A program made the translations under genes and the position numbers. Below are positions 3,611 through 26,647 of a stretch of DNA of 64,000 nt, in pieces. The stretch's first letter is position 1. Every line of letters begins with the position of its first letter. The notes beneath the pieces were generated by a model that saw nothing but the letters and a program-made list of their open reading frames with translations, was not told the DNA's origin and searched no databases. Source of the stretch: Adineta ricciae (Eukaryota > Rotifera > Eurotatoria > Adinetida > Adinetidae); contig CAJNOJ010000201.1 in NCBI GenBank assembly GCA_905250025.1, positions 1-64,000 of the forward strand, given 5' to 3'.

Positions 3611-4138
3611 ATGAAAATATATGTGCTAATCGAATGCATTCCGGGCACTAACATCGACCTGTTTCAGTCAACAAATCACAATGGTGAATCATTTCTACTT
3701 CACGCTGTACGACTCAACCGTCTCAGTGTGGTCAAAGCTCTTTTCGAGTTGAAGAACTCTGCTGAACTACTCGATGCGGTGAACAATGAAGGAGAGAACA
3801 TTGTTCATTTGATGGCAAAAGACAAGGAGCTGAAGGAGATGCTCGATGTATTTGTTGATTACTGTGAGAGAAAATCGATAAATATGCAAGACAAGTTCGA
3901 TAAGGTGGAGAAAACCAATCGGGGACTCTTAGAATCAGCAATTGTGCACAATAATCTCTGGGCTGTGCGAGCTCTCCTTCCAAGCTTCAATAAAGATGTT
4001 TGTAAGAGTAATGGCGACAATCTTATTCATCTTGCTGTTCGCTTTGGTGATCTTGAACTACTCAAATGCTTATTAGATAATGAAGAACTGAAGAAACAGG
4101 GAAATGGGCCAATGATTCCAACCGAACTAGCAGAATAA
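3611..4138 (+). pseudogene. Detached ankyrin-repeat fragment of an NF-kB p105/Relish-like gene
   Basis: The open frame encodes about 175 residues of ankyrin repeats (NHNGESFLLHA, NEGENIVHLMA, NGDNLIHLAV). Bases 3638-3921 match 8331-8614 of gene A with only about 11 differences by my count. A long internal stretch is identical including third codon positions, so the duplication or conversion is recent. The two copies diverge after that: this one adds a further complete ankyrin repeat (SNGDNLIHLAVRFGDLELL) before stopping, whereas gene A stops early. Upstream homology breaks at about 3637, and the 13 or so N-terminal residues after the ATG look like fortuitous coding. An AATAAA lies at 4248-4253. 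It may be a 5'-truncated pseudogene or a stand-alone IkB-like ankyrin protein; I lean to the former. Confidence 0.6.
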
Positions 4139-5388
4139 TTGGAACATGATGGATTTCCATAAAAAAAACTGATATTTTATCTGAGTCGTGACTAAAAAGG
4201 AAAGACAGTGGAAAATATTTATTACAAATAATAACGATTCATTCAATAATAAAGTTTACTCGTTTATCTTATCATTAAATGCGCTTTAAATAGGAACGAT
4301 TCATATGTGGGAAAGAAGATGTTGGTATTTGGTTAATATTAATTTTGAAAAGATGATCGTATTCGAATAGGGAACCGTGATTCATGCGACCGTCCGTCAC
4401 ACAATCACGTAAAGAACAGTTGATTTGACTCTCGATCATACGAAAAACTAACAGGTCAATGTACACCTTTCGGAAGACGTCTGATATTTCATTCATTAGG
4501 AGATAAACATTGGATTAAAAAAGTAACTATTCAAAAATAGAGTTGTGGATCGTGATTCATATATTGTGTCTACTTTAAGAACTGTGTACGATTATAGTAA
4601 AAGAATTAAATATGACACAGCGATACTCATCTTGGACCGTGATTATCATCAGCTGTTGTTTTATTTTATAATGCGATTCTAACGTTCTATTCTATACAAT
4701 GATATTTTGGTTATTCACTTTATAAGATTTCTTGATGTGCAGCCATTCGCAGTTAATCTTTCATATCCATGACTACATTTTCCCTGTGCAACGATTATTA
4801 GTAGTCTGTTCACAGTCAGATATTCGTATATACATGGTTTTTGACTATGTGGCTGATTTCTAGCTGAAGGAATAACCTTGACAGCAGTTGAATCTATTTT
4901 CTCAAATCTGTGATTGTAGCTCTCATCTTTGTAAATGTATGAATTGTACATTACTATATCGTGAAAATATAGGGAAAGTAAAAACTAACAGCTAGGTTTA
5001 TTCTGTTGAACGAGCATCTGGGGATTTAAAATGCAGCTTAACTGCTCGAAGATTCATAGTTGTTTTTAGTAGAGATCTCGCACAAACCCCAGGAACACTT
5101 TCTGCGGTAGCGGATATGTCGGCAGTTTCCAGTTTTTCCAAAAGTTTAGACGCGACTAAATACCAAACTGAATTTCACGTATTCAAAATGACCTTGTGTT
5201 CATTGATATGCCATTGAAGAAAGTTCTTGATTCAATAGAAGCACTGGTAATGCATTATGCAGAAGCCGATAATGAAAGCATCTAGATTCGTAGTACTGAT
5301 GTTCTTGATATGAGGTATTTATTTCTGTTGAGAGCAAATATTAGTTTTCCTTGAACAAGTCGGAAATAGAATCGAAGATTTATTGCCA
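4139..5388. other. Intergenic with two short unassigned minus-strand frames
   Basis: No convincing gene. Two minus-strand frames of 70-80 codons (4275-4496 and 4715-4951) match no family I recognise and lack clear splice links. They may be remnants or chance. Confidence 0.35.
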
Positions 5389-5808
5389 TTATATATGTGA
5401 AAGAAAAATTAGTATGATAACTACAAAATGTCTATGAAAACTTTTTCTTACATCTATCGCACCATTCAAATGTTGATTATTACAATAGTTCGTGAAACAG
5501 CATGTTACACTGGCAAATTTCTGCGAAGTCTGTAACATTTGCTGGCATGTTGTGTTTGACACTATCATCCACATCCATTTCCGTGCTTGTGACTGCTGTT
5601 CTTGTAATGTACAAATTGTATCATTTGTACTACAGATATATTTATAACTTGTACATGTACACGTACCATTGGTACACCTTCCTCCCCAGAAATCACTGTT
5701 CAAGATTATGATAGGAGTGAGAAAATCTGACGTTCCATGATAACAGATCAAACTTGACACATAGATAGTAGTGCATGTAAGGAGAGTAAGTAGAGTAAGC
5801 AGTTTCAT
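5389..5808 (-). CDS. Ly6/uPAR-like three-finger domain protein, GPI-anchor type
   Basis: A 139-residue single-exon protein. Residues 1-20 form a signal peptide (leucine/threonine-rich). The mature part is cysteine-rich and ends with the Ly6/three-finger signature CCFTNYCNN. A hydrophobic tail (HFVVIILIFLSHI) at the extreme C-terminus fits a GPI-attachment signal. Such proteins are small extracellular modulators or adhesion factors at the outer membrane; the specific role here is unknown. The start is a true ATG directly before the signal peptide. The TGTACA/GTACC-rich stretch inside (around 5607-5680) encodes Cys/Thr/Tyr-rich sequence. No operon-like partner is present. Confidence 0.7.
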   Translation of the reverse strand: MKLLTLLTLLTCTTIYVSSLICYHGTSDFLTPIIILNSDFWGGRCTNGTCTCTSYKYICSTNDTICTLQEQQSQARKWMWMIVSNTTCQQMLQTSQKFASVTCCFTNYCNNQHLNGAIDVRKSFHRHFVVIILIFLSHI

Positions 5809-6520
5809 ATGTACTGTGAGTGAAATGAGAGGTCTATTAAGTCACATTTATGCGCTTTTATGATGCCGTTTTGATTACTTTGATTGAATCTAATATACAG
5901 TTTTTCTCTTGTACATCTAGATCATAAGTCATTTTTTTGCCTATAGGAAGTTTAGTGTACGATTGACTTTTATAAATGAATGAGTGTTGAAAGGAGAGAA
6001 GAAAAAACGTACAATATTAGTATGGCTTATAATGTTTGTAACACGATAGGTTGAAGGTTGCCCAGGAAAGAACCTCTCTCAAATTCAAGGTATAGATAAT
6101 CGATGCAATCCATTCCCTCAAGTAGTGAAAATGAAACTATTGATGTTCGTTTAAAACCCCAGTTCGAACGTACCGAAATTGTATGAATCATGCAGGTTAG
6201 AAATGGGGAAGAAAAATAGTGACTGCTCTACCTAAAACACGTCTTTTCATATACGGCTATATTGAAGAATGTTACAAAATAAGTTTAATGCTTACGAAAG
6301 TATTCTTTCAACGTAAACAACACGAAGGATGACTATTTTTCCACTGTGGGAATCATGATGTCACGCGGGAAGGATAGAAGATACCAATTAAAGGTAGACT
6401 GGGAATTTTTTCGTTTTCTTCCCAAATGCGTCTAAACATATGTATATATATACAAACTAGCATACAGTAGACTTCTAATTGTTATTCGTTCATTTCCAAA
6501 TACGCAAACGCCATTCTACA
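5809..6520. other. Divergent promoter region between Ly6-like gene and Rel gene A
   Basis: 712 bp without a reading frame of interest, separating two divergently transcribed genes, so it should contain both promoters. A GGGAATTTTT word near 6400 is close to, but not, a kappa-B consensus. Confidence 0.4.
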
Positions 6521-8687
6521 ATGAATACAAATAGTGCAGCTTCGTCGTATAGTATGTTTCGATTATTATCAACCAAAGTTTACTTACCGCATCTTTTCCA
6601 GCATTCACACCTTTCTCATCTCTCCCATCCGTGGAAGCACTGGAAATAATTGCACAACCGTATCATTCGTCGAAACTGCGATACCGTTCGGATTACAAAA
6701 GTAACCAAAATCGACGTGGAGTTCTCCTGAGCCAAAATAATCCAAATTACAAAAATCCAGCTATTCGTGTACGTTGTCTATCTCCATTAGGCGTATTTAA
6801 TCTAAATATTTGACTCTAGATTCCAAAAGTATATCTAAATTCTACGGAGCAGTACTGCATACGTGTTTGTTTGGTAACTGTTGTAAATGAGAACACTAAT
6901 CATCGCTACATACATCCGTATGATCTGGAAGACATTCAAAATGAAGAATATAATGACCGTCAAAACCAAGCTGTTTGGTATCCGATTTTAGAAGAAGACG
7001 TTGGCGGCATCAAATGGTATGAGGGAAAAAGAATTTTTTTGTGATGATATAATTTGGTTTGTTTAAACATAGTTTTCCGAATTTACGAGTAGTAAAGAAA
7101 AAAGCAGATGACATAAAAGCGTATGGTGATTTACGAGTACTCGACTCTATGAGTAAGTTCTTGTCTATGTTTTTAAGAAAGGACTGAAATGATGTGATTG
7201 TTGCAGATGAACAGTCAACCCCACAATTAACAACCGCTAAAGAAACGATCAAAGAATTTAACCTTGAAATATCTCAACTAACATTTACAGTTGGCAAGAA
7301 AGTCTCCAATGATGGAGTTCCATCGTTGATTTTATTTTCTTCGACGACAATATTCTCTGACCGAATGACTGAGCATGTCACTCGAGATGTTGACTCAGAT
7401 ATTATGTCTAGAGAGTCAAACACCTTAGAATCTCCAACATCCGCATTAGGTACTCCTTGCCATATGTACCAGTATGCACCGCGATATGGTTATCAGGATA
7501 CGAATGAGACTGTATTGATTTTTTATACATCGAAACTAAAGCCAAAGATATATGGAGGTTTGATCATGTTGCATGTGTCAATTATTCTATTAATCAAGTT
7601 TTTCTCACAGATTTAGAAGTAAAATTTGAATGTAAAAGAACAGATAGCTTATGGTCACAACATGTTCTAAATCTCGAAGTTAAGGATCAAATGGTATCAT
7701 TTCAAACACCAATATATCCATACCCTATCAACCAGATAACACCTGTGACAATTGTTTTGCAACAAAGAAAAAGAAGTCTAGAATCACTTGTATATCATTA
7801 TCTTCCTACAGGTAAATATATCAATGATATGATTTTGTCCTTATTAATACGATTCTATCGGTTTAGATCGGTGTGCGAATTGTCACAAACGAACTATGTC
7901 ATATACGACTTCGGTGGAACGAATGAATTTGAATAAACGACACAGGTCTACGCCATTCGACGACGAAGAAACAACTGATGATGCTTGCTTCAAGCAAGGA
8001 CCGTCTGAAGAGACAGTCAGTGAACTTTATCCATAAAAGTCGTAACTTATTGCTTTGTTTAGAAATATTCAGCATCAAATGCATCCATTGGATGTAAGTA
8101 TTGTGCTAAATAGTAATTTTTCACCTGTTGGTTTTATAGTTTCTTCACTATCGATCATTGATGATGTGGATCGAATACTATTAAATAAAATGGACGACAG
8201 TATTGAGGCTTTATTTTCCGATAATGATTTGAAACCGTTCTTGCGCATCTCTCGAGCATTCATTCGAAAACAACCTCAACTACTTCACATAGCCACTCAA
8301 CGCAATCATTCAGATCTTCTCGTCAAATTCATTCCGGGTACTAACATCGACCTGTTTCAATCAACGAATCACAATGGTGAATCATTTCTACTTCACGCTG
8401 CACGTCTCAACCGTCTCAGTGTGGTCAAAGCTCTTTTGGAGTTGAAGAACTCTGCTGAACTACTCGATGCGGTGAACAATGAAGGAGAGAACATTGTTCA
8501 TTTGATGGCAAAAGACAAGGAGCTGAAGGAGATGCTCGATGTATTTGTTGATTACTGTGACAGAAAATCGATAAATATGCAAGAAAGATTTGATAAGGTG
8601 GAGAAAACCAATCGAAGACCATTGGAATTAGCGTTTCTGAATCAAAATCGATCGGCGATGCGTATTCTGTCGAAAATGTTCCATTGA
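6521..8687 (+). CDS. Rel gene A: NF-kB p105/Relish-like, RHD + IPT + ankyrin repeats
   Basis: Nine exons join in frame: 6521-6551, 6602-6768, 6820-7016, 7073-7152, 7207-7557, 7611-7811, 7867-8015, 8063-8093 and 8140-8687. They give about 584 residues. The N-terminal half is a Rel DNA-binding domain (AQPYHSSKLRYRSDY at the recognition loop, IRVCLVTV, KEFNLEISQLTFTVGKK). An IPT/TIG dimerisation domain follows (LEVKFECKR, VSFQTPIYPYPI, QQRKRSLESLVYHYLPT). Then comes a DRCANC motif, a basic stretch (NKRHRS, likely nuclear localisation) and C-terminal ankyrin repeats (PQLLHIATQRNH, NGESFLLHAARLNR). This is the class I NF-kB layout, in which the ankyrin part restrains the Rel part in the cytoplasm. 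The ankyrin array is short, roughly three repeats. If the 8016-8062 intron were retained, a stop at 8034-8036 would yield an ankyrin-free form. Confidence 0.8.
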
Positions 8688-9573
8688 TCGTAGGTCTCCT
8701 TCACCCCAAACTCATATTTGAAAGAAAAAAAGAGACGACTTCAGAAAATAAAATTATTGCATTTGCACAAACCAATCGTATGTATGCTGCGTTATTTTTC
8801 TGTGTATTCACCCACATCCATCACAGTAAAACTCTTGAATCCTTTGACATATGTCGGTGATTATTTGCTTGAATCGATTCATTCTTTCCCACGCAAAAGT
8901 ATTAATAATAAATTTTTCTTTTTCGAAAAAAACACGAAACCAAAATCGGAAAATTACTTTGACACACTCAGTCAATATTTGCAAATAAAATGTCGAGTCG
9001 AATGTTGTCTCCAAACGTCTAACTCACATAAGTCGCACATAGCATATCGTGGGACTTTATCGTTCAGAAAGGGATTTTTGTAGTTCTTTTGGACGTCAGA
9101 CGGGCAAATTGATACTAAGAATGAAAGTTTATTTTAGATATTATTGAGAAGACTTTAAAAAGATGGAAATTTACCTTGTTACAAAGATCTGTGCATTGTG
9201 ATAGTATAATTTGTTATGAATTATAATTTGAAGTGTCTCCAGCAAATGCCCTGAAGGAAATCACAACGATGGTTTTTCATTTCGGAAGTCATTTATAGTA
9301 CAACATTTTCGTTCTTTTCGATTGCACCTCAAAATAAAACAACAAGGGAAGCAACTACTGCGTGGCGTTGTCTCTTGTGTCAACAGAACGTATGAAAAAA
9401 CGAATGACGATAGGTTATATCCAAACACGTGCTAATAGAATAACAAAAGATGTCATAGGCATTTTCAGTCTAGGTCTTTTCCTAGTCTCTTGAGCCATAG
9501 TTATATATATCATCGTATATGTGGATGACGAAAGACTTAAAACGATTCAATTGATTGAGTTTCATTTGAACTC
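8688..9573. other. Intergenic between Rel genes A and B
   Basis: 886 bp. An AATAAA near 8746 can serve gene A. A plus-strand frame of about 120 codons at 8718-9083 has low-complexity, charged and Phe-rich content and no family resemblance; I regard it as chance. No further Rel exon was found. Confidence 0.4.
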
Positions 9574-10835
9574 ATGGCAACAAACTGCACCCAACAAGTG
9601 CGTATCCTCGCACAACCGCAAGCGTTCTGCAGAGAACGATATAACAGTGAAATGAATCACGACAATCACAGAGCGAATCGATTTCTACGTAGCGATCAGC
9701 CTGATTTCGATTATCCGACAATCGAAGTAGATATTCTTGCCATTGTTTTGTGATCATTTTATGATTCATTTTGCTTAGATTCCCGACATATGGAGACAAA
9801 ACTGTACACATATTCGAGTAACATTAGTGACCGTTCCATGGGAACAAGCACCAGAAAGATGCATACATCCGTATCCAATTATTACACCGGACTCAGATGC
9901 AATCTTACACAAGGAAATGAACACGATTTATTTTGCAGTATCAGACGATGAACGTCAAACAGGCAGGAAAAGGTAAGTATTGTATCCATAGCAATGCTCG
10001 GTTGGAATATTAATTTTCGTTTCCATTTTAGTTTTCGTATCAGGCGTGCAAAATTAACCCAGAATGATTTAAGAAATATCGGATCGTTATACATTCTGGA
10101 TACTGATCGTCGAGATGAAAATCGTATCGGTCCTGTCGTTGATCCTCGACAAATCATTAATACTTACCAATTAGGAAAATCTCAATTACTATTTTCTGTT
10201 GTCGGAAGCGAAAATGGTTCGCCATTGGTTATATATGGTACGACTTCTGTATATTCGGTCATTATGAGCGCACCTGTGAATACAACTAATGATGAAAATA
10301 CATGCATTAGATTTGCACCATCTAAAGGTTCTTGGGATGGCGGTGAAACTATTTTGATGTTCATACCAGACTTAGATAAACGAAAACGTGAGTGATTCGA
10401 TTTTCATTATAATGTCAGTTTTGCTGGTAATGTATCGTCTTTTTAGCCTGTGAGATCTATTTCGAATATCCTGGCAGTCCAAATGCTTCAGTCACATTTA
10501 AATATATCGATGTGAAAACACTTGAATTTAGAACTCCACGATGTCCATTTCCAGAAAATAGTCAGCATAGTGTCGTAGTGCCTATTGTTATCACGTACAG
10601 TGGAACAAAAGTGAAACGTGTTAACTTTCTCTATCACACCCGTACGTATCGAACTGATTTAATTGAAAATATTTTTATTTTGTATTTCTTTTTCTTTGAA
10701 GCAGACAGATGTTTAAACTGCGATAGACAAGCAATTTTTGATTCATGTGAAAGTTCAAATTCATCCAGTGCACAATCAACAACAGTCGATCAACTGTATC
10801 TTGAAGATGACTTTGATTTGGATGATAATGAATAA
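9574..10835 (+). CDS. Rel gene B: NF-kB-like, RHD + IPT, no ankyrin repeats
   Basis: Five exons (9574-9726, 9779-9972, 10032-10387, 10447-10641, 10702-10835) give about 343 residues. The Rel DNA-binding part aligns with gene A (VRILAQPQAFCRERYNSE; IRVTLVTVPWE; TYQLGKSQLLFSVVG). An IPT dimerisation domain follows (WDGGETILMFIPDLDK, EIYFEYPG, LEFRTPRCPFP, VNFLYH). It ends with PDRCLNCDRQ and an acidic tail (EDDFDLDDNE). The last acceptor at 10700-10701 was chosen because it restores the CLNC alignment with gene A. An upstream in-frame TGA at 9556-9558 supports ATG 9574. The protein resembles a Rel/RelA-type subunit without ankyrin self-inhibition, though no clear transactivation domain beyond the acidic tail is seen. 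Confidence 0.75.
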
Positions 10836-11720
10836 ATGAAGTATACGTTTTGTTTACTTAAATTCGTCAGTTATATAATCGGGAATTTACCGGATTAATT
10901 TTTTCTAATAAATAGAAAATTTGCATTCCATAAAAAATTTCGAAGTTTGTGTCAATGGCTGAGAAAGTAATAAACGTCACGTTTTTAACCTACGGAAAAC
11001 TGTTTGCATCAGTTATTCGAAAGACGTAAAGACACATTTATTATCAGTGTCCCAATCAGAATAATATTCGATCAAATATTTGCGAATAAAGTACTCGCAG
11101 GAAATGACACTATACTTTTACAAGTTACACGGTTTATTTGCATCACAAATCTACTTCAGTCCTACAAGTCTGCATTTCATTCGTTTTCTCAATAGAAATT
11201 TCCATGAAAACGATTTATCGAGTATCGACTATATGCAAACATTTTCTTATGGTACACAGTCGTATATTTGTCAATGATTATGGAAGAAAATGCTTCCATT
11301 TACTCGCTCTTGTTTTTCATATTACTCACAAACTCTTTGTCAAAGTGTTACTTTACCATAATAAATGCTTTTTTTACTCATTTGGTTCACTTGGATTTTA
11401 CCGAGCCATCTTTCGTTGCCGTTCTCTTACTCTCGTTTATTTGTCTTCCGTCATTCTATTTGTAATTTAATGTAAACTGACGATCTGTTGCTCTCACCAC
11501 AGTGTAGTTTCTTCGATATATTGAGAATGCTTTCGCTTGCATTACAATAGGATTTCGGGTCCACCAATCATATTCCTTCTTGCAAAGCGAAGCATGATAC
11601 GTTAGTTTGGGAAAAAATGAGTTTCTGTTTTATGAGATGGATTGTGACTGGCAATCATTGCTCGAAATACATTGAAGATCAGTTGTTTTTGTTATTCTAG
11701 ATACTTTTTTTTATACAACC
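10836..11720. other. Intergenic between Rel genes B and C
   Basis: 885 bp. An AATAAA lies about 70 bp past gene B. Several overlapping plus-strand frames at 11004-11470 encode Phe/Ser/Cys-rich low-complexity peptides in three frames at once, which marks them as chance. The promoter of gene C should be at the right end. Confidence 0.4.
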
Positions 11721-13320
11721 ATGGCGTATCAACCGTCTGATGATAGTAAGCGATACTATAAGATACGAAATTATGTCACTTTAATCTATTGATTTCAGTT
11801 CTACAATGTACTTATGACCATAGTACATTTCAAAACCTTGAGGAAAAATTCGCTGGCTTGGATGAGCCTCAAAACAGAAACGATGGCCTACTTCAAGATG
11901 ACGATCCTTGCCTGCCAAGATTTTTAAACACACAATTCTCGATCAACGAGAATGAAGAGATTGACAATGAAAGTAACGATCTAGTAGCGGCAACAGACAC
12001 GCCTACAGACTATAACAGTGATCAGTTGTTGCTCGGTGACGACATGAGCACGGTCGAACCCTATCAAAGTAATCTAGTTATTTTTACGTACTATATAAAT
12101 CAACTAATTTTGATCGAATTTAAGGTATATCGCATGAAGTTACTATCACAACGACTCCGTGCGGTATGTCTAAATAGTCTTTTCCTCCGTTATGACGATA
12201 GATGCTTTGCTATTGTGCTAGAATTGGCACCAAACGACCCATCACAAACAGATTATACAATGTCAGAGCTGAACTCGAATAAAAATGGTTTGGTAAGTAA
12301 TATGTACTTTCGCATATGTTGACAAGTGTGTCTGATCAATATTTTAGACACTTGACGAAATGACCAAATCGGTACAGACAGCAATCGATAAGCTGCAGTT
12401 GCAAGACATCGATAGATCGATTGGAGAACGCACCATGCTAGTCTTAGTTGAGCCGTTAACCAATCCTCGCATTCGTTACAAAAGCGATGGGCCAAGACAA
12501 ATTGAGAAGTGTCGCACCAAGCCTATAGTCATCCAGGTAGAATAGCTTTTCTCTTCTTTACCACGACTTATTTTCTTGTTCAGTTACCTGACCTAAAAAA
12601 AGTAAAACTGACATCTGGTCAGCAGTTTTATCTTCGGCTTATACTTCTAACGGACAACGATGATCCGTCGGCTTCTGTATTTCTTCATCCTAACAAATTG
12701 GAATATCATTCCAGCAACACAACAACATTAAATGACGGAACTGTTTGCGTCCCCATATCCGTTGATGAAATCAACAATGGGGTGAAAAGGTAAGGAAACT
12801 CGCTTTCGCCAAGAAATCTTCTGTACATTAAACTTTTATGTTTAGTTTACCTCGATTATCCTTTATTAAAACAAAGTTAACAGACTACAGACGTAGCTTG
12901 GCTACGTTCGATCTATGGAATACAGGGAGCAGTACGTACGCATTCTCTTTTCTTCATCTTAATCCCGAACAAATGCATTTTAGATGACGATGAAGAACAA
13001 ACACTGACTGTGGCCGAAGCAAAGACTTTCTTCGAGCAACATAATTTGAAAGCTAGTCGAATCAATTGTCAATTGTTAATTGAACAAAATAACACGTTTC
13101 ACTTTACCGATATAACTTGCAAAACTAAGAAGATGGAGGAAAGTACGTCGTATGCAATAAATTTTATTTCAGTAACATTTATTTCGCATTATTTATCTTA
13201 GAAAAAGCGCCAGTTGCGAAGAAAAAACGTCCGATTGAGACCGACAAAATCGATGATGACGAAGTTGCTGATTCTCGTCCATCGACATCAAAATCGACCA
13301 AGCGACGAAAACATTCATAA
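11721..13320 (+). CDS. Rel gene C: divergent RHD protein with C-terminal nuclear localisation signal
   Basis: Ten exons (11721-11745, 11799-12068, 12125-12158, 12202-12292, 12348-12536, 12584-12789, 12846-12931, 12984-13142, 13202-13320, with splice sites read by eye) give about 392 residues; the list shows nine segments, so one count is uncertain. An acidic N-terminal region of about 150 residues precedes a diverged Rel DNA-binding half (LVEPLTNPRIRYKSDG, VIQLPDLKKVKL, FYLRLILLTDNDD). No IPT domain or CxNC motif follows. The C-terminus is strongly basic in two patches (AKKKRP and TKRRKHS), a bipartite nuclear localisation signal. The intron phases 0, 2 and 1 within the Rel part match genes A, D and E. 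One donor (12159, GTGCGG) is weak and was chosen by frame. Confidence 0.65.
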
Positions 13321-13845
13321 ACTTAATCAAAACTAACTTTTTTCAAAAAGCTTTGCTGAAAGGCCTCTACCGCGTTCCATCAATTAATTTTAGTAATTTA
13401 TTTCGCAGAAATTCTTGTGTAATTCAATTGCACTTGTTATCTTTTTTGTCGTTCTTCATTCAATACACGAATAAAAAAATATTTTGACGAGAGCATTACG
13501 AAAAATTTCACAAACAAACGAAACTGGCTGATGCGCCATAGGAAACAGAAACAAAGGTCGACAAAAACACGAGTGGTTTGTCTTCAATCATTCAAAGTAC
13601 ATAGACATGTTATTACGACAGACGAGTTGGTTTTTTCCATCTTCATCTGTGGCTATATATAACTTTTTTCTCCTATTGTCGATGCTCTTTTTTAGCTGAC
13701 TCATGACAGAGAACGAAACAAAAAAGTCGCCCAGACAGGGGAGAAAAGGATTGTTAAAAGAGACGTAGACAGTACGCTGCGGCTTCTTATTTTTACAAAG
13801 CCTTTTCATACAACACAGTTAACTACGCTTTCACGATTATAATTT
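13321..13845. other. Intergenic between Rel genes C and D
   Basis: 525 bp with an AATAAA near 13470 for gene C. A minus-strand frame at 13588-13809 has no family resemblance and lies where the gene D promoter should be. Confidence 0.4.
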
Positions 13846-15382
13846 ATGTCGGACATAAACAACGCATTACTGGATTTATTTTCTGACGGAGATTTTTCCA
13901 ATGCTTTTGACGATATCTCTTTCAACTCGAGTGAGTGGAAATATCATCAAAACAATTCATAAAACTTCAAGTTGTTTAGATCAAGCTCCAGAGATTGATA
14001 ATATTCTGCCTGATTGCTTTTCTCCATTTCAATTCGATGACATAAATACTGAAATAGAGATCGGAAATGGCACCGCAGAGCTAAACCAAGTGGAGATAGG
14101 TTAGTTTCTAAAACTAGTACTTTGTATCATCTATATCTTGTCCTAATTGTAGACGACTTTGAAAATATTTTGCAAATCATAGAAAATGATCCGTTCGCTG
14201 AAGACTGGGACGCGAATCAACCGCTAGCAATAGCACACAATCCACCAGTTCCACGACAAGCTTATGGCAATGAAAGCGGTATAATGTATCAAATACACCC
14301 GACGTTGTTGGGTTTCATTACTGGCAACGTGTCTATTTCTCAGCAACCGAAAGGAAACAATCGCTCACGCTATGCATGTGATGGTCGTCGGTATTTACCC
14401 GATTCACGCTACCATCCAATGACTGTTAAAGTACGTTTTGTCTTTCTAGTACAAAAAATATTTTCATGCGACTTCCAATGTTTTAGTTACCGGATTTGCG
14501 ATCAATCGTACTAGAACAAAACCAAACCCTAGGTATTGTTATGACCATCGCAACAGATGCCAACAACCCAATGAACCAAAGTATGGTTCATTCACATGAT
14601 ATTATGTGCCATGAAAATGGCGTGGAAAAGATTGGGCATGGATGCTTATTCATACCACTCGTGCATGCCGATATTGACGCGTCACAGAAAAGGTATGTAA
14701 AATATTTCGAAAGATCTGTTCGTAAATTATTCTTTGGATTCGATAGATTTCCGCATGTATCGATTTTATACAAAAAGTATGAAGAATATACATTCAACCT
14801 GATTCCATTCGATGCGAATACCATGTTTGGACCACAGGAAAACTGTTCGTATACATTCGGCGACCTTTTGCTCATTTACAATCATTTGTTCTATGAACTA
14901 TAGATACCGTTCCAAACGAGCCAAATATGGATAACGTGCCCAGAGGGAAGCGTTTCAAAGCAGAGTACAACCTGTCGGTCTACAAATTCGTATTTCATCT
15001 GGCGATGAAGCAAGACCAAGTTGTTTACATTACGAACAATACATGCGAAACCAATTTGATCGATGAGAGTAGGCTTTTATCTGACTTTAGCGTGTGCATA
15101 TTTTCATGACTTTTTCTTATGTTTAGCGATCATCCCAACAAAGCCGAAGAAACGATTGGCATCAGACTCGGTCGCAAGTGTCTCCTCCGATGACGAAGTT
15201 AGTTCGAATTCACAAATATCGAACTCACCGAAACGATTGCGATCATCAACATCGGGACTACCGGTATTGAAACTTGTAATATAAGCCATTCTTCTATGAT
15301 AAAATCGTTTTTCTTTCAGGTAACTCGTGTACACAGTAGTTCTATAACGTCCGATACGGACAGCAACAATGCCCCAAGCTGA
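13846..15382 (+). CDS. Rel gene D: divergent RHD protein
   Basis: Nine exons (13846-13930, 13980-14099, 14153-14430, 14487-14692, 14747-14844, 14904-15068, 15127-15275, 15320-15382) give about 387 residues; eight segments are certain. After an acidic N-terminus comes the clearest Rel recognition loop of the C/D pair: QQPKGNNRSRYACDGRRYLP, then TVKLPDLRS. Further motifs are HSHDIMCHENGVEKIGHGC and FPHVSILYKK, which follow the canonical Rel order (HxH...C...G.C...NLGI..KK). A last Rel segment (AEYNLSVYKFVFHLA) leads into a basic/serine-rich tail (TKPKKRLASDS, SPKRLRSS), a likely nuclear localisation signal. No IPT domain is visible. The 3' end lies about 130 bp from the retrotransposon tail. 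Confidence 0.7.
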
Positions 15383-15515
15383 AGGGGCTCATCCGCGCAT
15401 ATTAAGCAAACTTCTTTGGCCAAGCTGGGAAGAAAAATTATTTATACTTATACCACTTCTTTTTCTTTGACTTTCATCCAATGGAAATTTCATCTATTCA
15501 TGATTTTCTTATGAA
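15383..15515. other. Short flank between gene D and the retrotransposon tail
   Basis: About 130 bp of AT-rich sequence that should carry the 3' UTR of gene D. No obvious target-site duplication could be paired with the far flank. Confidence 0.3.
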
Positions 15516-15520
15516 ATAAA

Positions 15521-15536
15521 TTTATTTATTTATTTA
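15521..15536 (-). repeat. (TAAA)n tail of the retrotransposon
   Basis: A TTTATTTATTTATTTA run on the plus strand, read as AAAT repeats at the 3' end of the minus-strand element. It marks the likely 3' terminus. Confidence 0.6.
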
Positions 15537-15773
15537 AATACCCTTACCGTCCCCGGTGTTGGGTGAGAAACAAAAAACAACAAAAAATATAAAAAAGAAA
15601 GAAAAAAATGTACAGTAAAGTCTATTGTTTAATTTTCGACGAGCACCACGTTGATCACCACCAGCGTTGAAAAGAAGATATTATCAGGCTATTACCCTCT
15701 GATGAACAGTTTAGGTAATAACCATCATGTGAATCCCAATTCAATTATAGTAGTTGAAAAGCCATCATTTCAT

Positions 15774-18700
15774 TTACTTGATTTTATTTGCGTTGCACCA
15801 TCCTTTTGCTGCCACACATGATTTGACATGATTTGTGATACCTTGTGGCTTAAAATTCGTTTGACAACCAGGACATCTGTATTTATCATTTTCTTTTACC
15901 AAAATTTCTGTTACTTTCAATTTTGTTAAACCGTGCAATGCGGCTAACTCCGTTTTTCTTCTTTGAGATGATTTATCTCTATATTTATAGATAATATCTT
16001 TGATATTTACAGAGACTGGCTTTACATAGACATTTTTGTTTATTACTTCCCGCCATTTTTTCCTGTCCAGCGTTAGTCTACGCCAGTTCTGTATTTGTGT
16101 GTCGTGAATGTCTTTTAGGATTTTATCTTCCCATTGTTTGTACCGCCCTATGTTGCTAGGTCTCTTTTCATCATGAAAATAAGAGAACATCGTTTTTTTA
16201 ATTAAAGATGGCGAACCATCCGGATTAATAGAGCGATTGACGTGCCCAAACCATCTTAATCTATTTCTACGTATGATGTTTTCAATTGGTGGTTGACCTG
16301 TGATGTTTAATAAGGTTTCATTTGACATCCTGTCACCTAAGTTTACTCCTATGATTGTCCGTAAACATTTATTATAGAAAGTAGTTATCCTTTTTTCTTG
16401 TGTCGTGGTAAGAGCCCAAGTCTCGCTACCGTACAATAAGACTGGCAGTACGCAAGCTCTAAAAATTCGAAGTCTTGCTGTTATAGAGACTGATTTTCTA
16501 TGCCATATGATATGTCTTAGTGAATTGAAAGCTTTAGAAGCTTTATTTAGCCTTATAGAAATCTCTGTATCATGTCGCTGATCTTTCGTTATAGTGCAAC
16601 CTAAATATGTGAAAGATTCAGCTATTTCAATTTTCTGATTTCTAATAGTTATATTAATATCATTGTCATAGTTGATTGTTTGTCCTATTACAACCTTTTT
16701 CTGTTGATCTTCTTTCAGGTGTTGTAGTGACATCACGCAGGTTTTTTTAATACTCATAGTCAAACCATATTGCTGTGTTACTTTTTCAAAACAACAAATG
16801 AATTTTTCTAGATCACATATTTTGTCACACATTACAACTAAATCATCAGCATATAATAATGCTAATATGTCGAAATCACTGTGTTTTTCGTGTTTTCCGT
16901 GACAGAAGTCGTTACTACCATAAGAGAATCTCACTCCTGATACAGCAGCTTCATTAATAACTTCTTTTATGATGAAGTCAAATAGAATGTTGAATAGGAT
17001 TGGAGATGGAATACCTCCTTGCATTACCCCTGTATTCATTTCGAAACTATCAGACAGTTCACCATTTATTTTCACTTTTGCTATTGAATCTTTGTATAGC
17101 ATTTTTAATAGGTTAACCAATTTATCAGTAATGCCGTAACTACGACATACTTTCCATAAGAGTTCACGGTTCACTGAATCATAGGCCTTAGTTATATCAA
17201 TGAAACACATGAATAGAGGTTTATTGAATGCTTTTCTCTTTTCCATTGTCATTTTCAAAGTGAAAATCTGATCTATGGTCGATCTGTTTGATCTGAAACC
17301 AGATTGTATTTCTAATAGCTGACAATCTACTAAATCTTGAATACGGTTGAGTATAATACGTGAGAATATCTTACTAGTTGTATTCAGTAGTGCGATGCCT
17401 CTATAGTTGTCACAAATTTTCCTATCACCTTTATTTTTGTATAATTTTATTAGAGTTGTCATGTTCCATTCTTTTACCATATGCTCGTTCTCCCATACAT
17501 CAGTAAAGAATTCGAACAACCATTGTATTATTGGTTCACCTCCAGCTTTTAGGATGTCCACTGTGATCTCATCGCTACCTGGAGCTCTTCTAGATTTCAT
17601 TTGACTTAGTGCTTTTCTCACTTCTTCAATATATATTGGAGAGTTTTGTCGCCGCTCTTCAGTTATTGACAGAGGCGGTGTGTCAATTAGATCAATGAGA
17701 CTTTGATCGATCGATGAATTTACGTTGAGTGTATCATGAAAAAATTCACGCCAACGTTTCAAGGTATCCTTTGAATTTACCAAGAGTTTACCACTTTTAT
17801 CTTCCACTGGCATATTTTCGTCTCTTTTACATCCACCTCTGAGACGTCTGATGATGGAAAAAGCCGTCATAGGATCATTACTCTTCATAGACTTTTCTAT
17901 ATTTTCGCATATTTCATCCCAATATTCTTCTTGGCGATGTTCTGTCATTATTTTGACAGTTTTTCTCAGGCGTTTATATCTATTGCGAAATTTATATTCT
18001 GATTTAGAACCACGATTATTTTGCCATTCGATAAAAGCTATCGATTTTTGATCGATAGCTTGCATAATGTCGTTTGTCAACCATTCCTTTCTTTTTCGAT
18101 TCTTATTCTTGTCGACAGGAAAATGATATTTGGCCTTTTCTTTTATCTGTGACAGAAAAAGTTCGTATTTCTGATCAATGCTAATTGTGTTTACATTTGT
18201 ATTGTCAAATGTGTTCTGAAGATCCTTTTGAAACGCTTCTAGTAATTTGTCATCTTTTAGCTTGGCACTATCAACGTTTATTTTCTTCGGATTAGCATTT
18301 TTTCTTCTGCTTTTTAAATGCAATCGAATTTTGACACGCATAAGATGATGGTCAGTTCCTATTGTACCTGCTGCCCCTCTTAGCATTCGCACATCTTCAA
18401 CGCTTGACCGAAACTTCTTATTTACAAGAGTAAAATCGATCATGTGCCATTTTTTATTTCTTGGATGCATCCAAGATGTTTGATGCACTAGTTTATGTTT
18501 GAAAAATGTGTTAGAGATTAAAATGTTGTTAATCTCGCAGAAGTCAAGAAGCTTTGTTCCATTTTCATTTTCTATATCAACTGTAAATGGCCCTATTCCA
18601 TTTCTCAGTACGTGTTGATGTCGTTTTTGTTGATCATTTCCAACTCTCGCATTTAGATCACCCATAATGATGATCATGTCTTTCGTAGATACATCGTTTA

Positions 18701-19166
18701 ATGCATCTTGTAGGTCATTATAAAATTTGTCACTTTCATCGCTCATTTGTTTTGTTTTCGGATTAATAGGAGAGTAGACTGCAATTACAGTAATGTAAAT
18801 TGGCGCACAGTAGAGTCGAATTTTAATAATCCGTTCATTTATTGGTATCCATTCGCTCCCTGAATCCTTCCAAACCTTTGTGGCAACCGGATCGAGACAG
18901 ATTGCCACACCATGAGCTTTTCGTGTTTTTCTGTCGTTTGGTGCACCTGAATAGATCATCGTGTAGTCGCTTACTAATTTTATGCCGGAATCACACATAC
19001 ACGTTTCACTAAGTGCGGCTATTTTTATTTGATATTTCTTTAATTGTTTGACTATGATCTCCTTCTTTGATTGCTTTGTACAAGATCGAACGTTCCACCC
19101 GCCGAAAAAAACATGATTTTGTGCATTTACGCACTTATAATGTTTCTTTTCATTAGCAATGATTGT
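15774..19166 (-). CDS. Retrotransposon ORF: AP endonuclease + reverse transcriptase + zinc finger
   Basis: The open frame runs about 1130 codons. The N-terminal endonuclease has GGWNVRSC, the catalytic Glu in LSETC, GDLNARVG and GTDHHLMRV. The reverse transcriptase has RRAPGSDEI, IDITKAYDSV, VMQGGIPSP and the catalytic LLYADDLVV. Then come thumb and C-terminal motifs (LLYGSETWAL, RNRLRWFGHV) and a final C-x2-C-x11-H-x3-C zinc finger at CPGCQTNF...HVKSC. The first ATG (18996-18998) lies inside the endonuclease, after WNVR and the catalytic Glu. The frame stays open a further 56 codons upstream, to a stop at 19167-19169, with no ATG. Either a non-AUG start is used or the true start was lost. 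All key catalytic residues seen are intact. Confidence 0.85.
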   Translation of the reverse strand, partial: TIIANEKKHYKCVNAQNHVFFGGWNVRSCTKQSKKEIIVKQLKKYQIKIAALSETCMCDSGIKLVSDYTMIYSGAPNDRKTRKAHGVAICLDPVATKVWKDSGSEWIPINERIIKIRLYCAPIYITVIAVYSPINPKTKQMSDESDKFYNDLQDALNDVSTKDMIIIMGDLNARVGNDQQKRHQHVLRNGIGPFTVDIENENGTKLLDFCEINNILISNTFFKHKLVHQTSWMHPRNKKWHMIDFTLVNKKFRSSVEDVRMLRGAAGTIGTDHHLMRVKIRLHLKSRRKNANPKKINVDSAKLKDDKLLEAFQKDLQNTFDNTNVNTISIDQKYELFLSQIKEKAKYHFPVDKNKNRKRKEWLTNDIMQAIDQKSIAFIEWQNNRGSKSEYKFRNRYKRLRKTVKIMTEHRQEEYWDEICENIEKSMKSNDPMTAFSIIRRLRGGCKRDENMPVEDKSGKLLVNSKDTLKRWREFFHDTLNVNSSIDQSLIDLIDTPPLSITEERRQNSPIYIEEVRKALSQMKSRRAPGSDEITVDILKAGGEPIIQWLFEFFTDVWENEHMVKEWNMTTLIKLYKNKGDRKICDNYRGIALLNTTSKIFSRIILNRIQDLVDCQLLEIQSGFRSNRSTIDQIFTLKMTMEKRKAFNKPLFMCFIDITKAYDSVNRELLWKVCRSYGITDKLVNLLKMLYKDSIAKVKINGELSDSFEMNTGVMQGGIPSPILFNILFDFIIKEVINEAAVSGVRFSYGSNDFCHGKHEKHSDFDILALLYADDLVVMCDKICDLEKFICCFEKVTQQYGLTMSIKKTCVMSLQHLKEDQQKKVVIGQTINYDNDINITIRNQKIEIAESFTYLGCTITKDQRHDTEISIRLNKASKAFNSLRHIIWHRKSVSITARLRIFRACVLPVLLYGSETWALTTTQEKRITTFYNKCLRTIIGVNLGDRMSNETLLNITGQPPIENIIRRNRLRWFGHVNRSINPDGSPSLIKKTMFSYFHDEKRPSNIGRYKQWEDKILKDIHDTQIQNWRRLTLDRKKWREVINKNVYVKPVSVNIKDIIYKYRDKSSQRRKTELAALHGLTKLKVTEILVKENDKYRCPGCQTNFKPQGITNHVKSCVAAKGWCNANKIK

Positions 19167-19300
19167 TTAATGTCCAGCTAGAGATTGCTAGCCTCATGAC
19201 CAGACGGTTGGCTACTAGCAGCCCAGGGTCGCCTCCTACAACCGCTCGAAAGTAGTCGTAGGACCCTGTGAAAGTTAAAAACTTTCCTAGCAGGCGTTAT

Positions 19301-20061
19301 GAAATAAAACATATTAAAAACATCACTTTTTTTCTTTCGATATTTACGAATCATGACATTATGCTTGCTTTGGATACTCAATTTCCGAGTATATTGAAAT
19401 TTCTCATGAAACCATATCCATCGTTTTACGTATGTGTTACGGTAAACAACATATACTAAGAGAAAAGGCCAGAGTAGAATAAGAACGATGACAGAATGAG
19501 TCAAAGGTAAAAATACCTATTTGAATTATATGTTGGAAAAAACCAAGAAGGGAATAAAAGCAAGATCAATATAAAATGGTATGTCAAAATAGAAGAATTA
19601 TAAAGCTGTAGACGTACTTTTCTTTAATTATCATTCTGAAATATAACTTCACGTGTTTTAACCCTTCGTTATCGTTCTCATTTTTCGCAAATTTCGACTG
19701 TTCAAAAATCTTCCCAAAACATCAAGGGTAATATGAATTTTTTTTGCTTGCTGTTCTACTCCAACATAAAGCTACTAAATATATCCACTCTGTAAATAGT
19801 TTATTTCTCAGAGACGAGAATAGCCAAAACAAAACTTTTAAGTGGGTCTGCCCAGACTCAACAACACTAACGCAGGGTTGATATATTGTCAATAAGCACA
19901 TGACACCGTTTTCTTCATAGCACACTGATTTCATGTCTTTTTTGCCATTCTGTTCGATCTTTCAGTATTTATCGATGTCCAGAGTGGTTTGCTGGAGTTG
20001 TTAAGCAAGTCGAACGAGCTAATTGAGAAATAGTTCGTCTACAAGCGTCAGAAGACTTGAA
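19301..20061. other. Intergenic between the retrotransposon and Rel gene E
   Basis: About 760 bp of AT-rich DNA. I see no missing exon of a Rel gene. The right part should hold the gene E promoter. Confidence 0.4.
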
Positions 20062-21825
20062 ATGAGCTGCAACCTATCGTTTACAGTCGATCTTTCAGGT
20101 ATATAGCACCTACAATTTGGAAATCATGTGTGTCTACTCATTATTTTGTTTAGATTTTGACAAAAGTGGAACAGGTACCACGGACGGCAGTAATATCAAT
20201 GCAAAAGGAAATTCTAATCTTTACTACGAGATTTTTCACTTTAGACGTGCAAGTAGTCGACTATTGTAATTCATTAGAAACCACGCTGATTGGTATCATT
20301 GGACTATGTATAGGCGATACATTACGATTTTATCTATTTAGAATCTATTACAGAATCATGGAGCAGTGACATCGACAGTCTTCCAGATATTGATGGGCTA
20401 CCTCTAAGATCGCCCATACTCAGTTTGTTTGATTAGTAATCAATTCCACGTTTTTGTGTTTCTATCTCTAGCCTCTGTTGATGGAGTATATCAATACTTG
20501 ACAACTTCTACCTCGTGTTTTTCTACAGTTGGATGCACATCTGATAATTCTCTGCCTACATGTCGAACAAATTCTAAGCCATGTATAGAATTCACTTCAC
20601 AATGTATTCTTTGAGATAACCGTTCATCTTTAGCATCGATTCTATCGGTACCACTTTCTGCCGATGTTCATATAATAGACTCGACTTCAACGAAATTAAA
20701 ACTCGTTTATCCAATTGAAGAAACCTATCGCGGACGTTATAAAAGTGATTATTTTCCTCAGACTGGCGCAGTTCGCCATCCACGATATGTCGCTGATCGA
20801 GAGCACAATCATCACATAACACTACAAGTAAAATCTCATTCATATAATGAAGTCTGTCAGATTTATTTAGTTGCCAAGTGTATATCATTCTGATTTAGCG
20901 AACAAGTACATTCGCATTGCATTAATTACTGTGTCCATCGACGGGCACGGTCATTTCTATAGTCCATATAAATTCCAGAGAGATCATATGGATATTAACA
21001 TTTCAGATGAAAATCCGATTTATGTCAAAGTGGACACTAATGCAAAAGAAGCGTTTATCATGAGGTTTGATATACAAACGACAAGAGTTATTTCATTACA
21101 CGATGTGTGACTTTTACCGTAGGCTACAGCTTGTTTTAATCAAATCGAAATTAGATCAACTTAATTACTGTCAACCACTGAAGTGTTTTTCCGTTACCGA
21201 CAATACGAAACAGAGTAATGCATACGCATGGAAGAGAATTCTCTGTCACGGATATTCTAATATAATTTAGATCCGATTCATGAAGGCATTTTATCACCTA
21301 AAGACTTAATCAATCGATATCAACTCGATAAATCTCACATAGCGTTTACGCTATGTACACAAAAGTCCGACGGGACTTATGAGCCTCACCCACAAACAAC
21401 AGTTGTCTCCACCATTATCAGTGAAGTCTCATCGACGAAAAAGACGAGCAATAAAGTTGCTTCGGAAGAAGCTTCTGCTACAACTGTATCACCACTAAGT
21501 AGACAACATTATTTTCCTCGACCATAATCATTTCTGCGAATACTATTTTCTATCTTCAGTCGATACTGACAAACACTTATGCTGTCCGAATTGTTGCTAT
21601 CATTTCAATGCTGTTTCTAATTCCACATCTAACACGAGTAGCAAACGTTCGTTCGACGACGCGATCTCATGTTCAAGTGCCAAAGTAATCCATGCTAATC
21701 AGTTATTAATCGATACGTCTTATTCAAATATTTATAGTCCACAACCAAGAGAAATAGCAAAAGAAGAAAGAAGAACAAATAAATACGAATCTGATGGATG
21801 CCGAAAAGTTATTTTTCTATTATGA
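20062..21825 (+). CDS. Rel gene E: RHD without IPT domain, CPNC motif
   Basis: Nine exons (20062-20098, 20154-20252, 20342-20422, 20472-20582, 20634-20827, 20871-21064, 21123-21214, 21271-21498, 21560-21825) join in frame to about 433 residues. The N-terminus contains an acidic Ser/Asp stretch (SSDIDSLPDIDGLP). The Rel DNA-binding half follows: IEETYRGRYKSDYFPQ, RHPRYVADR, KYIRIALITV and NRYQLDKSHIAFTL. There is no IPT dimerisation domain: after a Ser/Thr-rich linker the protein goes straight to HLCCPNCCYHF, then a serine-rich tail. The intron at 21499-21559 was inferred because reading through it stops soon after and loses the CPNC motif. Genes E and F are closest to each other. A role as a DNA-binding antagonist or partner of A or B is inference. 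Confidence 0.7.
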
Positions 21826-22582
21826 CTATAAATGAATTTATGAAAGTTTCCAAAGCAGAACGAACTATCGCATTGTTTTATTTTTCTCGAAGAAAGAAAA
21901 ATACGCATGAATTTCTGTTTAGATAAACATGCACATATTATCGCGTTCTTTTCGTTTTCATCTCACTACCAATAACTATGCATGATAGAATGCGAAATGA
22001 CGTTGTTCGATAAGGTTTTTTCCCCAACAAAGTCAGTCGCCAAAAGCACGCTGATATATGAAACGTGTTTTAGTCATTTCATAATACTTTTCATGACGCC
22101 ATAGCTACGTCTTGTTGACATTCTCTTCTCACGCACATGTATTTATCGAAAGAGCAATAGACACTTCAGTATACGGCTGCATTTAATGCACATCAAAGAA
22201 AACCGTTATAAATATTCTGATGGATTTAAACAATGTTTTGATAGTTTCTGCCGTTATGAATAAATGATTCTCATATATATGTCACGTAACTATGTTGAAA
22301 TCCAAGTCACTGGCAACATTGCATGTTTATGTGCTTTTTCTGTTCTGTCTTTTTTATTTCTCTTCTTCCGCATATGACTCACTGCTTGGAAAAAACCCCA
22401 AGCTAACAAGTACCTATGTGTATAAATATGCTGCGCAACAAGGTTTGTATAGAAACCCTTTTGGAAATATATACAAAGAATTTCAGTCGCAAACAAACCT
22501 TCTTTATACAACATAGTGTTAATGTGATTTACTTTCCCGTGTATTCACAATAATTCCAAGGGAAAGTTAGTAACAAACCAAT
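21826..22582. other. Intergenic between Rel genes E and F
   Basis: 757 bp, very AT-rich. A 74-codon plus-strand frame at 22292-22516 starts with a hydrophobic, signal-like stretch, but a frame of the same length lies opposite it and no family is recognised. The promoter of gene F should lie near 22500. Confidence 0.35.
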
Positions 22583-24156
22583 ATGAATGGAAATGACTTT
22601 ATGTTAAGTGCAACGGCTCAAGACATACATATTGAATCAGGTTGCATCGATCTTTCGTTTGAAGATTATTCGTTCGGTACGCTGGTTGACAGTGGAGCTG
22701 GATTCGGCTTACCTAATGATTTTTTCGACGATATTCCCATATCGGGCAGCTGCAATGAACAGAATTTAGCTAGTAGGATCAGATGAAATTTTATAGGAAA
22801 TCTATCTCTAAAATAAATATATAGACTCGCTTGCTATTTCTGAACCAAATGAACTAGAACAACTGTTCCTATCACCGCAATCCATAATCAATGGTAAACT
22901 AAACATATAAAGAATTCTTTGAGTGATCATTAAATTTTAGATTTTGTACCGGAAATTGATCAAAATCTGCTTGTCTTACCGATTGAGCGAGTTTACACTC
23001 CTGGTAAGTAAATAAGAATCTGTTTTCAATGGATGGTATTCTATATAATAATATGAATAGAGAAAGCGAAAAAGAAAAGCGACAGTAAAAAATCAATAGC
23101 GCTTTCATCATCCGTGGGTGTGGGCTTTTCTCAACGCTTACCACTAACATCCTCTAAAATCGAGATCGTTTATGATCTTGAAGAAAAATATCGACCACGG
23201 TACAAAAGTGATTATTTTGGACAAAATGGGAAGAATCGAAAACCCAGATATGTGGCTGACCGTAGGGGTAATCATTTCATATGCATAAAAGTAATTAACA
23301 TTCAAAGATTTACTATTACTAATTCGTCTTATATATTCGTTCGATAGGTACCTCTCGGGCATCAAGGAGTTGTTCGAATTGACTGGGTGACAGTACCCGA
23401 TGTGAATAATGATCGTTATGTGATGCCATACAAATTTCAAGCTAGTAACGACTCGTCGGAAATCTCGGATTGTAATCCAATATATGAGTCAATTCGATGT
23501 GATAAATTGGGAATCATGAAGTAAATATCATTGTCGTTTTCAATAAGCATCCAACTGAAACACGTGTTTACAGGATCTATCTGGTTTTAATCAAAACCAA
23601 ACAAGATGCTTTGAAATCGCTTCAACCATTGCAACCATTTCATCCATATCAAGACATGCTTGGTTCATCTGATAAACAAACACCTGGACAAAGTCAGAAA
23701 TTAACACCCAAGCAACTGATACAAAAGCATCAGCTTACTAAGTCTCAGTTGGCTTTTACACTATGCTCAATAGCTACTGATGGCCATACACCCATTCCGA
23801 ACTGGGATACAATGGTCTATTCAACAGTTTTAGAAGGTAAAATATCATAATGAAAGCGTTCGAGAACAATTTATCCTACGTTTGTTGATAGAAGAAGCAG
23901 GCGAGAATACATCGGTCAAAACAATATCTTGTCCGAATTGTTCATGCTCGATTAAGATGAACGAGGACACTACCCAATACGCAGAAATACCAATCACAAA
24001 AAGAAAAAAGACGGCTGGTAAAGTAGAGACATCGTCAGGAGTAAAAGTATGAATTTATTATCCTAAAAACTAATTGCTTCATTTGTGAAATCCGGATTTT
24101 GATTTTAGAGACAAAAAAGTTTGCCTGAAGAAATCCGTTTGGCATACTGTTCATAA
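22583..24156 (+). CDS. Rel gene F: RHD without IPT domain, CPNC motif
   Basis: Eight exons (22583-22772, 22825-22893, 22941-23003, 23061-23290, 23348-23520, 23574-23836, 23892-24046, 24109-24156) give about 396 residues. The acidic N-terminus (FFDDIPIS, ELEQLF) is followed by a basic patch (EKAKKKSDSKKS). Then comes a Rel DNA-binding half almost parallel to gene E (LEEKYRPRYKSDYFGQ, KPRYVADR, VVRIDWVTVPD, QKHQLTKSQLAFTL). As in E, an IPT domain is absent and a short linker leads to ISCPNCSC, then a basic TKRKKT that may be a nuclear localisation signal. Its phase-0 and phase-2 introns match the other cluster members; the third, phase-1 Rel intron is missing, as in gene B. This is the last Rel gene of the cluster. 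Confidence 0.7.
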
Positions 24157-25980: not shown

Positions 25981-26647
25981 TGTTTTCGTCGTATATTTTT
26001 ATATTACTCTTATTACAAAATATGAGAAAGAGCAAGCAATGATCAAAGAAAATACAAACGTTCTTGTACTTTATTACTTTTGGCCGCGCAGGTGTCTAGA
26101 AACATGGCTTGTCGACGAAATTACAGAACGAAAATATATCCATCCCAGTACAAACATCAAAATAAACCCGTTTGCATAATACTGCTCATATAAACAACAT
26201 TCTATAGTTTTCTCTGCAGTTAGTATGAGGCAAAATAAATTATCCTTGAATTGGAACGCGCGTATAAAACTGTGCTCAATAAGATCAAGAAGTTTTGTGA
26301 CGGGTTGAGTGCAATTCTTTCAATGATCCATTCGACGTTTCGATTATTTGATCACTCTTAATAACATGAAGAAGTCGAGTTTATTACCGACGGTGGACCA
26401 AAGCGACATCTATAATTAATAAATCTAAAGAAGAGAGCGTCATTTTCGCAAAATGTCATATTTCGATTTTACACGAAAAATATTTCCAGTAAGATGAAAT
26501 CTCCAAAACAGGATTTGCGACTGATTTCTTATTGGATATGATGACTGTTTCCTAATATGGATACTGATACTCACGCGAACGTTCCTATATATTCATCTAT
26601 CATTAATCGACACATTCTATTCGTGGAATCGATACTCTTACTCTAGC
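25981..26647. other. Divergent promoter region of the NHL gene and PDCL3
   Basis: 667 bp between divergently transcribed genes. No reading frame of interest; AT-rich with no motif I can name safely. Confidence 0.4.

Follow-up and report, generated by a model that had tools for sequence, protein, structure and literature searches.

What do the six spliced genes in a row on the plus strand of an Adineta ricciae contig encode, and what might four of them do with only half of a Rel region? The genes (A-F; 6521-24156), preceded by an ankyrin-repeat piece (K; 3611-4138), lie in the window analysed here, the first 64,000 nucleotides of contig CAJNOJ010000201.1 (C201). They were compared with two other contigs of the same assembly (130 Mb, 1033 contigs), C211 (184,046 bp) and C23 (689,530 bp). 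The row is probably an old bdelloid tandem array of transcription factors derived from Rel/NF-kB, in which A and B retain both halves of the Rel region, the DNA-binding RHD-N and the dimerising RHD-C, and C-F have RHD-N only; A would be latent, B its partner and C-F half-site binders. Judged by their sequences, and for C and E also by predicted structure, all six descend from one Rel-type gene.

All 44 introns of the six genes are of the GT-AG type and 43-62 bp long. The models of C, D and E are residue-identical to deposited A. ricciae proteins (P0018, P0019 and P0029, respectively), and that of A equals P0036 from residue 12 onward, with a different N-terminus. For B and F, no identical deposited protein was present among the database matches obtained; these models were checked via the sister contig C211, for which P0001 and the second half of P0028 show the same exon layout (all P numbers are labels of deposited proteins; P0001, P0021, P0028, P0067 and P0087 are also from A. 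ricciae).

Each gene encodes a recognition loop of the form R/K-x-R-Y-x-[S/C]-[D/E]: KLRYRSD (A), RERYNSE (B), RIRYKSD (C), RSRYACD (D), RGRYKSD (E) and RPRYKSD (F). Profiles of A, B, C, D and E/F were aligned pairwise (hhalign) with one another and with a canonical p50/p65/p52 profile, and 15 reversed profiles served as decoys (pairwise E 0.08-0.79). The canonical profile aligned with A (E 2.2e-5, 273 columns) and B (E 2.8e-5, 250 columns), in both cases running through RHD-C. Within the cluster, six of the ten pairs reached E 2e-9 or better (A-B 5.5e-38; A-E/F 7.6e-24; C-D 4.7e-20; B-E/F 1.9e-15; A-C 1.8e-12; B-C 2e-9), followed by C-E/F (6.9e-5), B-D (5.8e-4), A-D (6.6e-4) and D-E/F (0.052). 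A B-family profile run against the PDB gave 21 sequences, the top 13 of which contain p65 (best E 0.011), with NFAT5 and RelB at ranks 20 and 21 after six unrelated ones. The Didymodactylos relative P0088 clears the Pfam cut-off for RHD_dimer.

Gene structure points the same way. When the six genes were aligned with 14 relatives and their introns mapped, every one of the six had a phase-0 intron at column 277 and a phase-2 intron at column 352; A, C, D and E have a phase-1 intron as well (columns 388-393). In each of the six, moreover, a phase-1 intron directly precedes the exon with a CxxC motif (A, B, E and F) or the first basic cluster (C and D); the columns differ, and the intron is presumably the same. 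AlphaFold models of C and E matched NF-kB/NFAT well above other folds (Foldseek, VIA), and velvet and p53 domains came next in the structure lists, with Rel/NFAT 2.5-3 Z units or more above them. This second place is what would speak for C-F being another immunoglobulin-like DNA-binding family (velvet or p53-like) not derived from Rel, a reading to which we give almost no credence, given that gap and the two intron positions and profiles linking C-F to A and B. On rank alone in the structure lists a velvet or p53 origin was set aside, a lower rank being compatible with kinship. The initial annotation had described six plus-strand Rel-type genes, and this is upheld by the profile chain, the folds of C and E, the shared introns and the loops; the fold match that it proposed for C-F was obtained for C and E, with D and F supported by profiles and shared introns.

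RHD-C is kept by A and B and not by C-F: eight RHD-C queries run against bases 1-26000 gave plus-strand matches at A and B only, together with two minus-strand chance matches (E 0.02 and 0.37). As no RHD-C was found at C-F, these genes were filed as RHD-N-only derivatives and not as NF-kB proteins. In A and B the RHD-C exon is flanked on both sides by phase-1 introns, so its loss keeps the frame. C-terminal ankyrin repeats after the Rel region, the mark of class I NF-kB, were found in gene A only (Ank_2, E 1e-9). One class I NF-kB with an inhibitor tail, beside ankyrin-free and dimerisation-free relatives, had been proposed initially; the architecture stands, A being ankyrin-tailed, B a full Rel protein without ankyrin repeats and C-F devoid of RHD-C.

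Selection was estimated as omega (ratio of nonsynonymous to synonymous substitution rates) from the comparison of C201 with C211, at a synonymous divergence (dS) of 0.10-0.18. Whole-gene values were 0.22 (A), 0.39 (B), 0.48 (C), 0.61 (D), 0.60 (E; 0.37-1.12) and 0.56 (F). Divided into RHD-N and the rest of the protein, they were 0.11/0.27 (A), 0.52/0.28 (B), 0.35/0.64 (C), 0.35/0.94 (D), 0.16/1.45 (E) and 0.34/0.82 (F), and for C-F pooled 0.30 (0.21-0.42) vs. 0.90 (0.64-1.25). The RHD-N of C-F is under purifying selection and the rest of the protein not clearly so; selection in these genes thus maintains the DNA-binding half. Decaying remnants without function would show a lost domain, fast divergence and neutral-like change outside RHD-N, as C-F do, with an omega bound above 1 in E; we nevertheless regard this explanation as very improbable, because the frames are intact on both C201 and C211, RHD-N is under purifying selection, and D, E and F are kept in Rotaria. 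Pseudogenes were likewise rejected as an explanation of the six genes.

Several results weigh against reading the row as Rel-derived genes whose DNA-binding half is maintained. The Pfam scan called for by the initial annotation went the other way: a Rel domain was recognised in none of the six window genes, and the sole matches were to ankyrin repeats in A and K (the final models of B, C, D and E were rescanned); recognition by the curated Pfam Rel models is a test of detection, not a property of the proteins. The E/F profile had three PDB matches, no Rel chain among them. The canonical profile aligned weakly with D (E 0.0085 over 38 columns) and C (E 0.033 over 166 columns) and not significantly with E/F (E 0.27, beaten by its own decoy at 0.18). 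The R-x-R-Y loop given in the initial annotation for all six genes is strictly present in five, the loop of A beginning with K. The RHD-N fold has the support of predicted structure in C and E, the two that were folded, and of profiles and shared introns in A, B, D and F. The ankyrin tail of A is partial, the Relish-like P0087 having a longer one, and an inhibitor role for it is therefore only inferred. The upper bound of the whole-gene omega of E is 1.12, and B reverses the pattern of C-F, its RHD-N being no more constrained than the rest (0.52 vs. 0.28).

Exon by exon through the whole genome, PF00554 had two matches, both under the cut-off, and PF16179 none; in this search neither PF16179 nor PF18397 (IKK scaffold) was found, with uninformative controls, so we make no claim of absence. 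NCBIfam gave no Rel match in the seven relatives scanned, and phmmer against the PDB returned nothing for B, ankyrin and chance matches only for A, and ankyrin plus a few chance matches for P0088. From the decoy comparison and the pairwise values, C-F are linked to Rel via A and B, not directly. As for the loop, the first residue in the 85 bdelloid domains of the tree set described below, themselves picked by the pattern [RKH]xRY, is R in 69, K in 15 and H in one, and all 11 A-clade rows read KLRY.

The row recurs elsewhere in the assembly. On C211, A-F lie in the same order (85.7-99.5 kb) after two further ankyrin-tailed Rel genes (77.1-79.4 and 79.9-82.5 kb), eight genes in total; in the translation of the second of these the usual loop is unrecognisable. 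The minus strand of C23 (241 to 212 kb) has ten gene models whose order matches: first a B-type gene with ankyrin, then Relish (P0087), another ankyrin-bearing Rel gene and a second B-type gene with ankyrin, followed by C, two D-type genes, E and two F-type genes. These are predicted models (g8 is poor where P0067 gives a better one, and g10 has no loop and was assigned to F-type by tblastn). Together the three clusters (6, 8 and 10) hold 24 Rel-type gene models; two of the clusters may be homologous chromosomes. More relatives occur on C400, C502 and C554. With the gene order found on two other contigs, an assembly artefact, which the initial annotation had named as a way for its claim to fail, is unlikely and was rejected.

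Adineta, Rotaria and Didymodactylos are all bdelloid genera. Three database searches returned 17, 10 and 65 proteins, and all 70 named ones among these 92 are from Adineta, Rotaria or Didymodactylos, in searches that need shared five-residue words and are thus uninformative on distant kin. UniRef already labels some of the relatives "RHD domain-containing protein" or "Relish". In A. vaga the A, B, C and F types correspond to I4U23_026144, 026145, 026147 and 026150. Deposited Rotaria proteins join D-, E- and F-type domains (P0031 and P0032), D and E domains (P0043, P0049, P0055, P0061 and P0075) or a B-type and a C/D-type domain (P0008); real or not, these fusions show that the genes lie next to each other. 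Two A. vaga proteins (P0081 and P0090) have an F-type RHD-N joined to a long downstream region, with weak Pfam matches of leucine-rich repeat (LRR) type in P0090 (E 0.012).

The tree comprised 87 rows (85 bdelloid domains, cut by the [RKH]xRY pattern, plus p50 and p65); 59 proteins were listed from the 92 database proteins, four were dropped as equal to window genes, and unnamed metagenome rows and fragments were excluded. Clades A (100/99), B (99/95), D (99/93), E (100/98) and F (99/91) have starred support and each contains Rotaria rows, clade E also a Didymodactylos row. Clade C is made up of Adineta rows alone (100/97), and its join to the C23 copy has unstarred support of 94/71. The deep joins have long branches and are not to be trusted. 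Given Rotaria orthologs of A, B, D, E and F, the cluster is old and a recent species-specific burst was rejected; the lineage-specific expansion first proposed is thus retained as an old one, and the tree supports the accompanying view that the paralogs stand as far apart as different subfamilies do. We conclude that the row is real and ancient and has been maintained; its novelty is not a new fold but the size of the set and the fact that four members lost the dimerisation half and have long persisted without it.

As for function, A would be a latent NF-kB-like factor that its ankyrin tail holds back; B, free of ankyrin repeats, would be the partner of A, and the two would dimerise via RHD-C. 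Most likely, to go by their sequences, C-F are nuclear half-site binders modulating A and B: with no ankyrin repeats and with basic C-termini, they are proposed to be nuclear by default, and they would grip kB-like half-sites as monomers through the R-x-R-Y loop, either activating weakly via their acidic N-termini or competing with A and B; E and F are perhaps zinc-paired. The competing role taken by itself, with C-F as dominant-negative decoys that tune A and B by sitting on half-sites or composite sites but do not activate, suits genes that have no RHD-C and in which RHD-N is under selection and the rest drifts; it is a serious possibility, though we hold it to be the less probable one, as the acidic N-termini suggest an activating region, even if composition alone proves nothing.

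A CPxC motif is present in all 31 E/F-family rows that reach its position (34 rows in total), in a tail with a median column identity of 0.39, and could let E and F dimerise, in place of RHD-C, via a zinc ion shared by two such motifs as in the Rad50 zinc hook. Weak zinc-ribbon Pfam matches occur in 10 of the 34 rows, with one match to Rad50_zn_hook (E 0.12). Among A-type proteins 9 of 13, and among B-type proteins 13 of 22, have a CxxC motif after RHD-C (counted by position; five B-type misses end short of the motif, and a looser pattern gives 14 of 22, one inside RHD-C), although both types keep RHD-C; it is absent from C/D-type proteins (0/13) and sits in a low-confidence stretch of the E model. 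We consider the zinc hook unlikely. Equally doubtful is the wider proposal that loss of the dimerisation domain created a second kind of Rel factor, with E/F hooked by zinc between two chains and C/D as monomers, which together with A and B would enlarge the Rel code of animals reported to have no Toll-like receptors (TLRs).

Features of the locus are collected in Table 1. The only interruption of the row, the minus-strand retrotransposon noticed initially, was confirmed by its 12-bp repeats and a frame with an RVT_1 match (E 9.8e-33) plus sub-threshold endonuclease matches; the insertion (15509-19308) is clean and apparently recent. The detached ankyrin piece is real as well, with a changed origin: K corresponds, at 88.7%, to the ankyrin-coding end of Rel gene A' (C211:81725-82255), a match that breaks the order of the flanking alignment. 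By this match K is part of a different Rel gene of the array, from which it has not been detached on C211. A' itself (L013/L014, C211:79900-82500) has a complete-looking ankyrin tail and a degenerate recognition loop, and is possibly a partner or inhibitor without DNA contact.

Table 1. Coordinates and composition of the Rel-type row and its insertion in the window
Feature	Position	Strand	Composition	Remarks
K	3611..4138	+	displaced ankyrin-repeat piece	Ank_2 E 2.8e-12
Gene A	6521..8687	+	RHD-N, RHD-C, CANC motif, basic stretch, partial ankyrin tail	9 exons, 584 aa; ankyrin by Pfam E 1e-9
Gene A, RHD-C exon	7611..7811	+	most of RHD-C	201 bp, phase-1 intron each side
Gene B	9574..10835	+	RHD-N, RHD-C, CLNC motif, acidic tail, no ankyrin	5 exons, 343 aa
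Gene B, RHD-C exon	10447..10641	+	most of RHD-C	195 bp, phase-1 intron each side
Gene C	11721..13320	+	acidic N-terminus, RHD-N, basic C-terminus, no RHD-C	9 exons, 387 aa
Gene D	13846..15382	+	acidic N-terminus, RHD-N, basic stretch, no RHD-C	8 exons, 387 aa
Target-site repeat, left copy	15509..15520		12 bp	right copy 19297-19308
Non-LTR retrotransposon	15521..19296	-	insertion between D and E; open frame 15774-19166, 1130 aa	absent from C211; not part of the Rel system
Gene E	20062..21783	+	N-terminal region, RHD-N, CPNC motif, basic C-terminus, no RHD-C	11 exons, 396 aa
Gene F	22583..24156	+	N-terminal region, RHD-N, CPNC motif, basic C-terminus, no RHD-C	8 exons, 396 aa

Three other minus-strand features of the window were noted: an NHL-repeat protein (24480-25998; PF01436 E 3.3e-29) adjoining it, TRIM/NHL-like, with a weak B-box match (E 0.0048) in an upstream frame; a PHD-finger frame (1523-1966; PF00628 E 8.9e-6); and a small secreted-looking cysteine-rich frame (5389-5841) with no Pfam match, by eye Ly6/three-finger-like.

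The Rel family is defined by DNA-binding and dimerisation domains and a nuclear localisation signal, according to the available portion of PMC8763368. Gene A and P0087 follow the order of Relish and NF-kB p105-p100, with RHD-N, RHD-C, a basic stretch and then ankyrin repeats at the C-terminus; A differs in a Rel region below Pfam detection, K first in the loop, its partial tail and a CxxC motif after RHD-C. Gene B resembles Rel/Dorsal-type proteins (RHD-N plus RHD-C, no ankyrin, best PDB profile matches to p65) and departs from them in its very short N-terminus, acidic tail and CLNC motif, and in having ankyrin-tailed relatives on C211 and C23. Compared with the NFAT core DNA-binding domain, C-F have no RHD-C. 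The "RHD-only" NF-kB of medusozoan jellyfish (PMC13042239, in excerpt) has no ankyrin tail, as here; the term in that excerpt is read as a full Rel region without ankyrin, whereas C-F are missing one of the two halves of that region. The literature on bdelloid or rotifer Rel, NF-kB or Relish (mostly open papers, no preprints) yielded, by title or abstract, no account of the six genes.

In the sections available of the respective papers, no TLR is reported in A. vaga and Rotaria tardigrada (PMC8609888), A. vaga is described as having TIR and LRR genes but no canonical TLR, rotifer immune pathways having been unreported till then (PMC6043800), and the authors of a fungal-challenge study state that metazoan genes were not closely explored (PMC11258130). 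The A. ricciae genome has 27 exon-level matches to TIR domains, although bdelloids are reported to be without canonical TLRs; such genes are a possible input to the Rel set.

Because four of the six clustered members keep the DNA-binding half only, under purifying selection, the function of a Rel domain without a dimeriser becomes directly testable. The six window genes went unseen by Pfam, and domain-based surveys probably undercount bdelloid Rel genes. The 24 Rel-type gene models belong to a host whose group, in the part of PMC8609888 consulted, is reported to lack Toll-like receptors.

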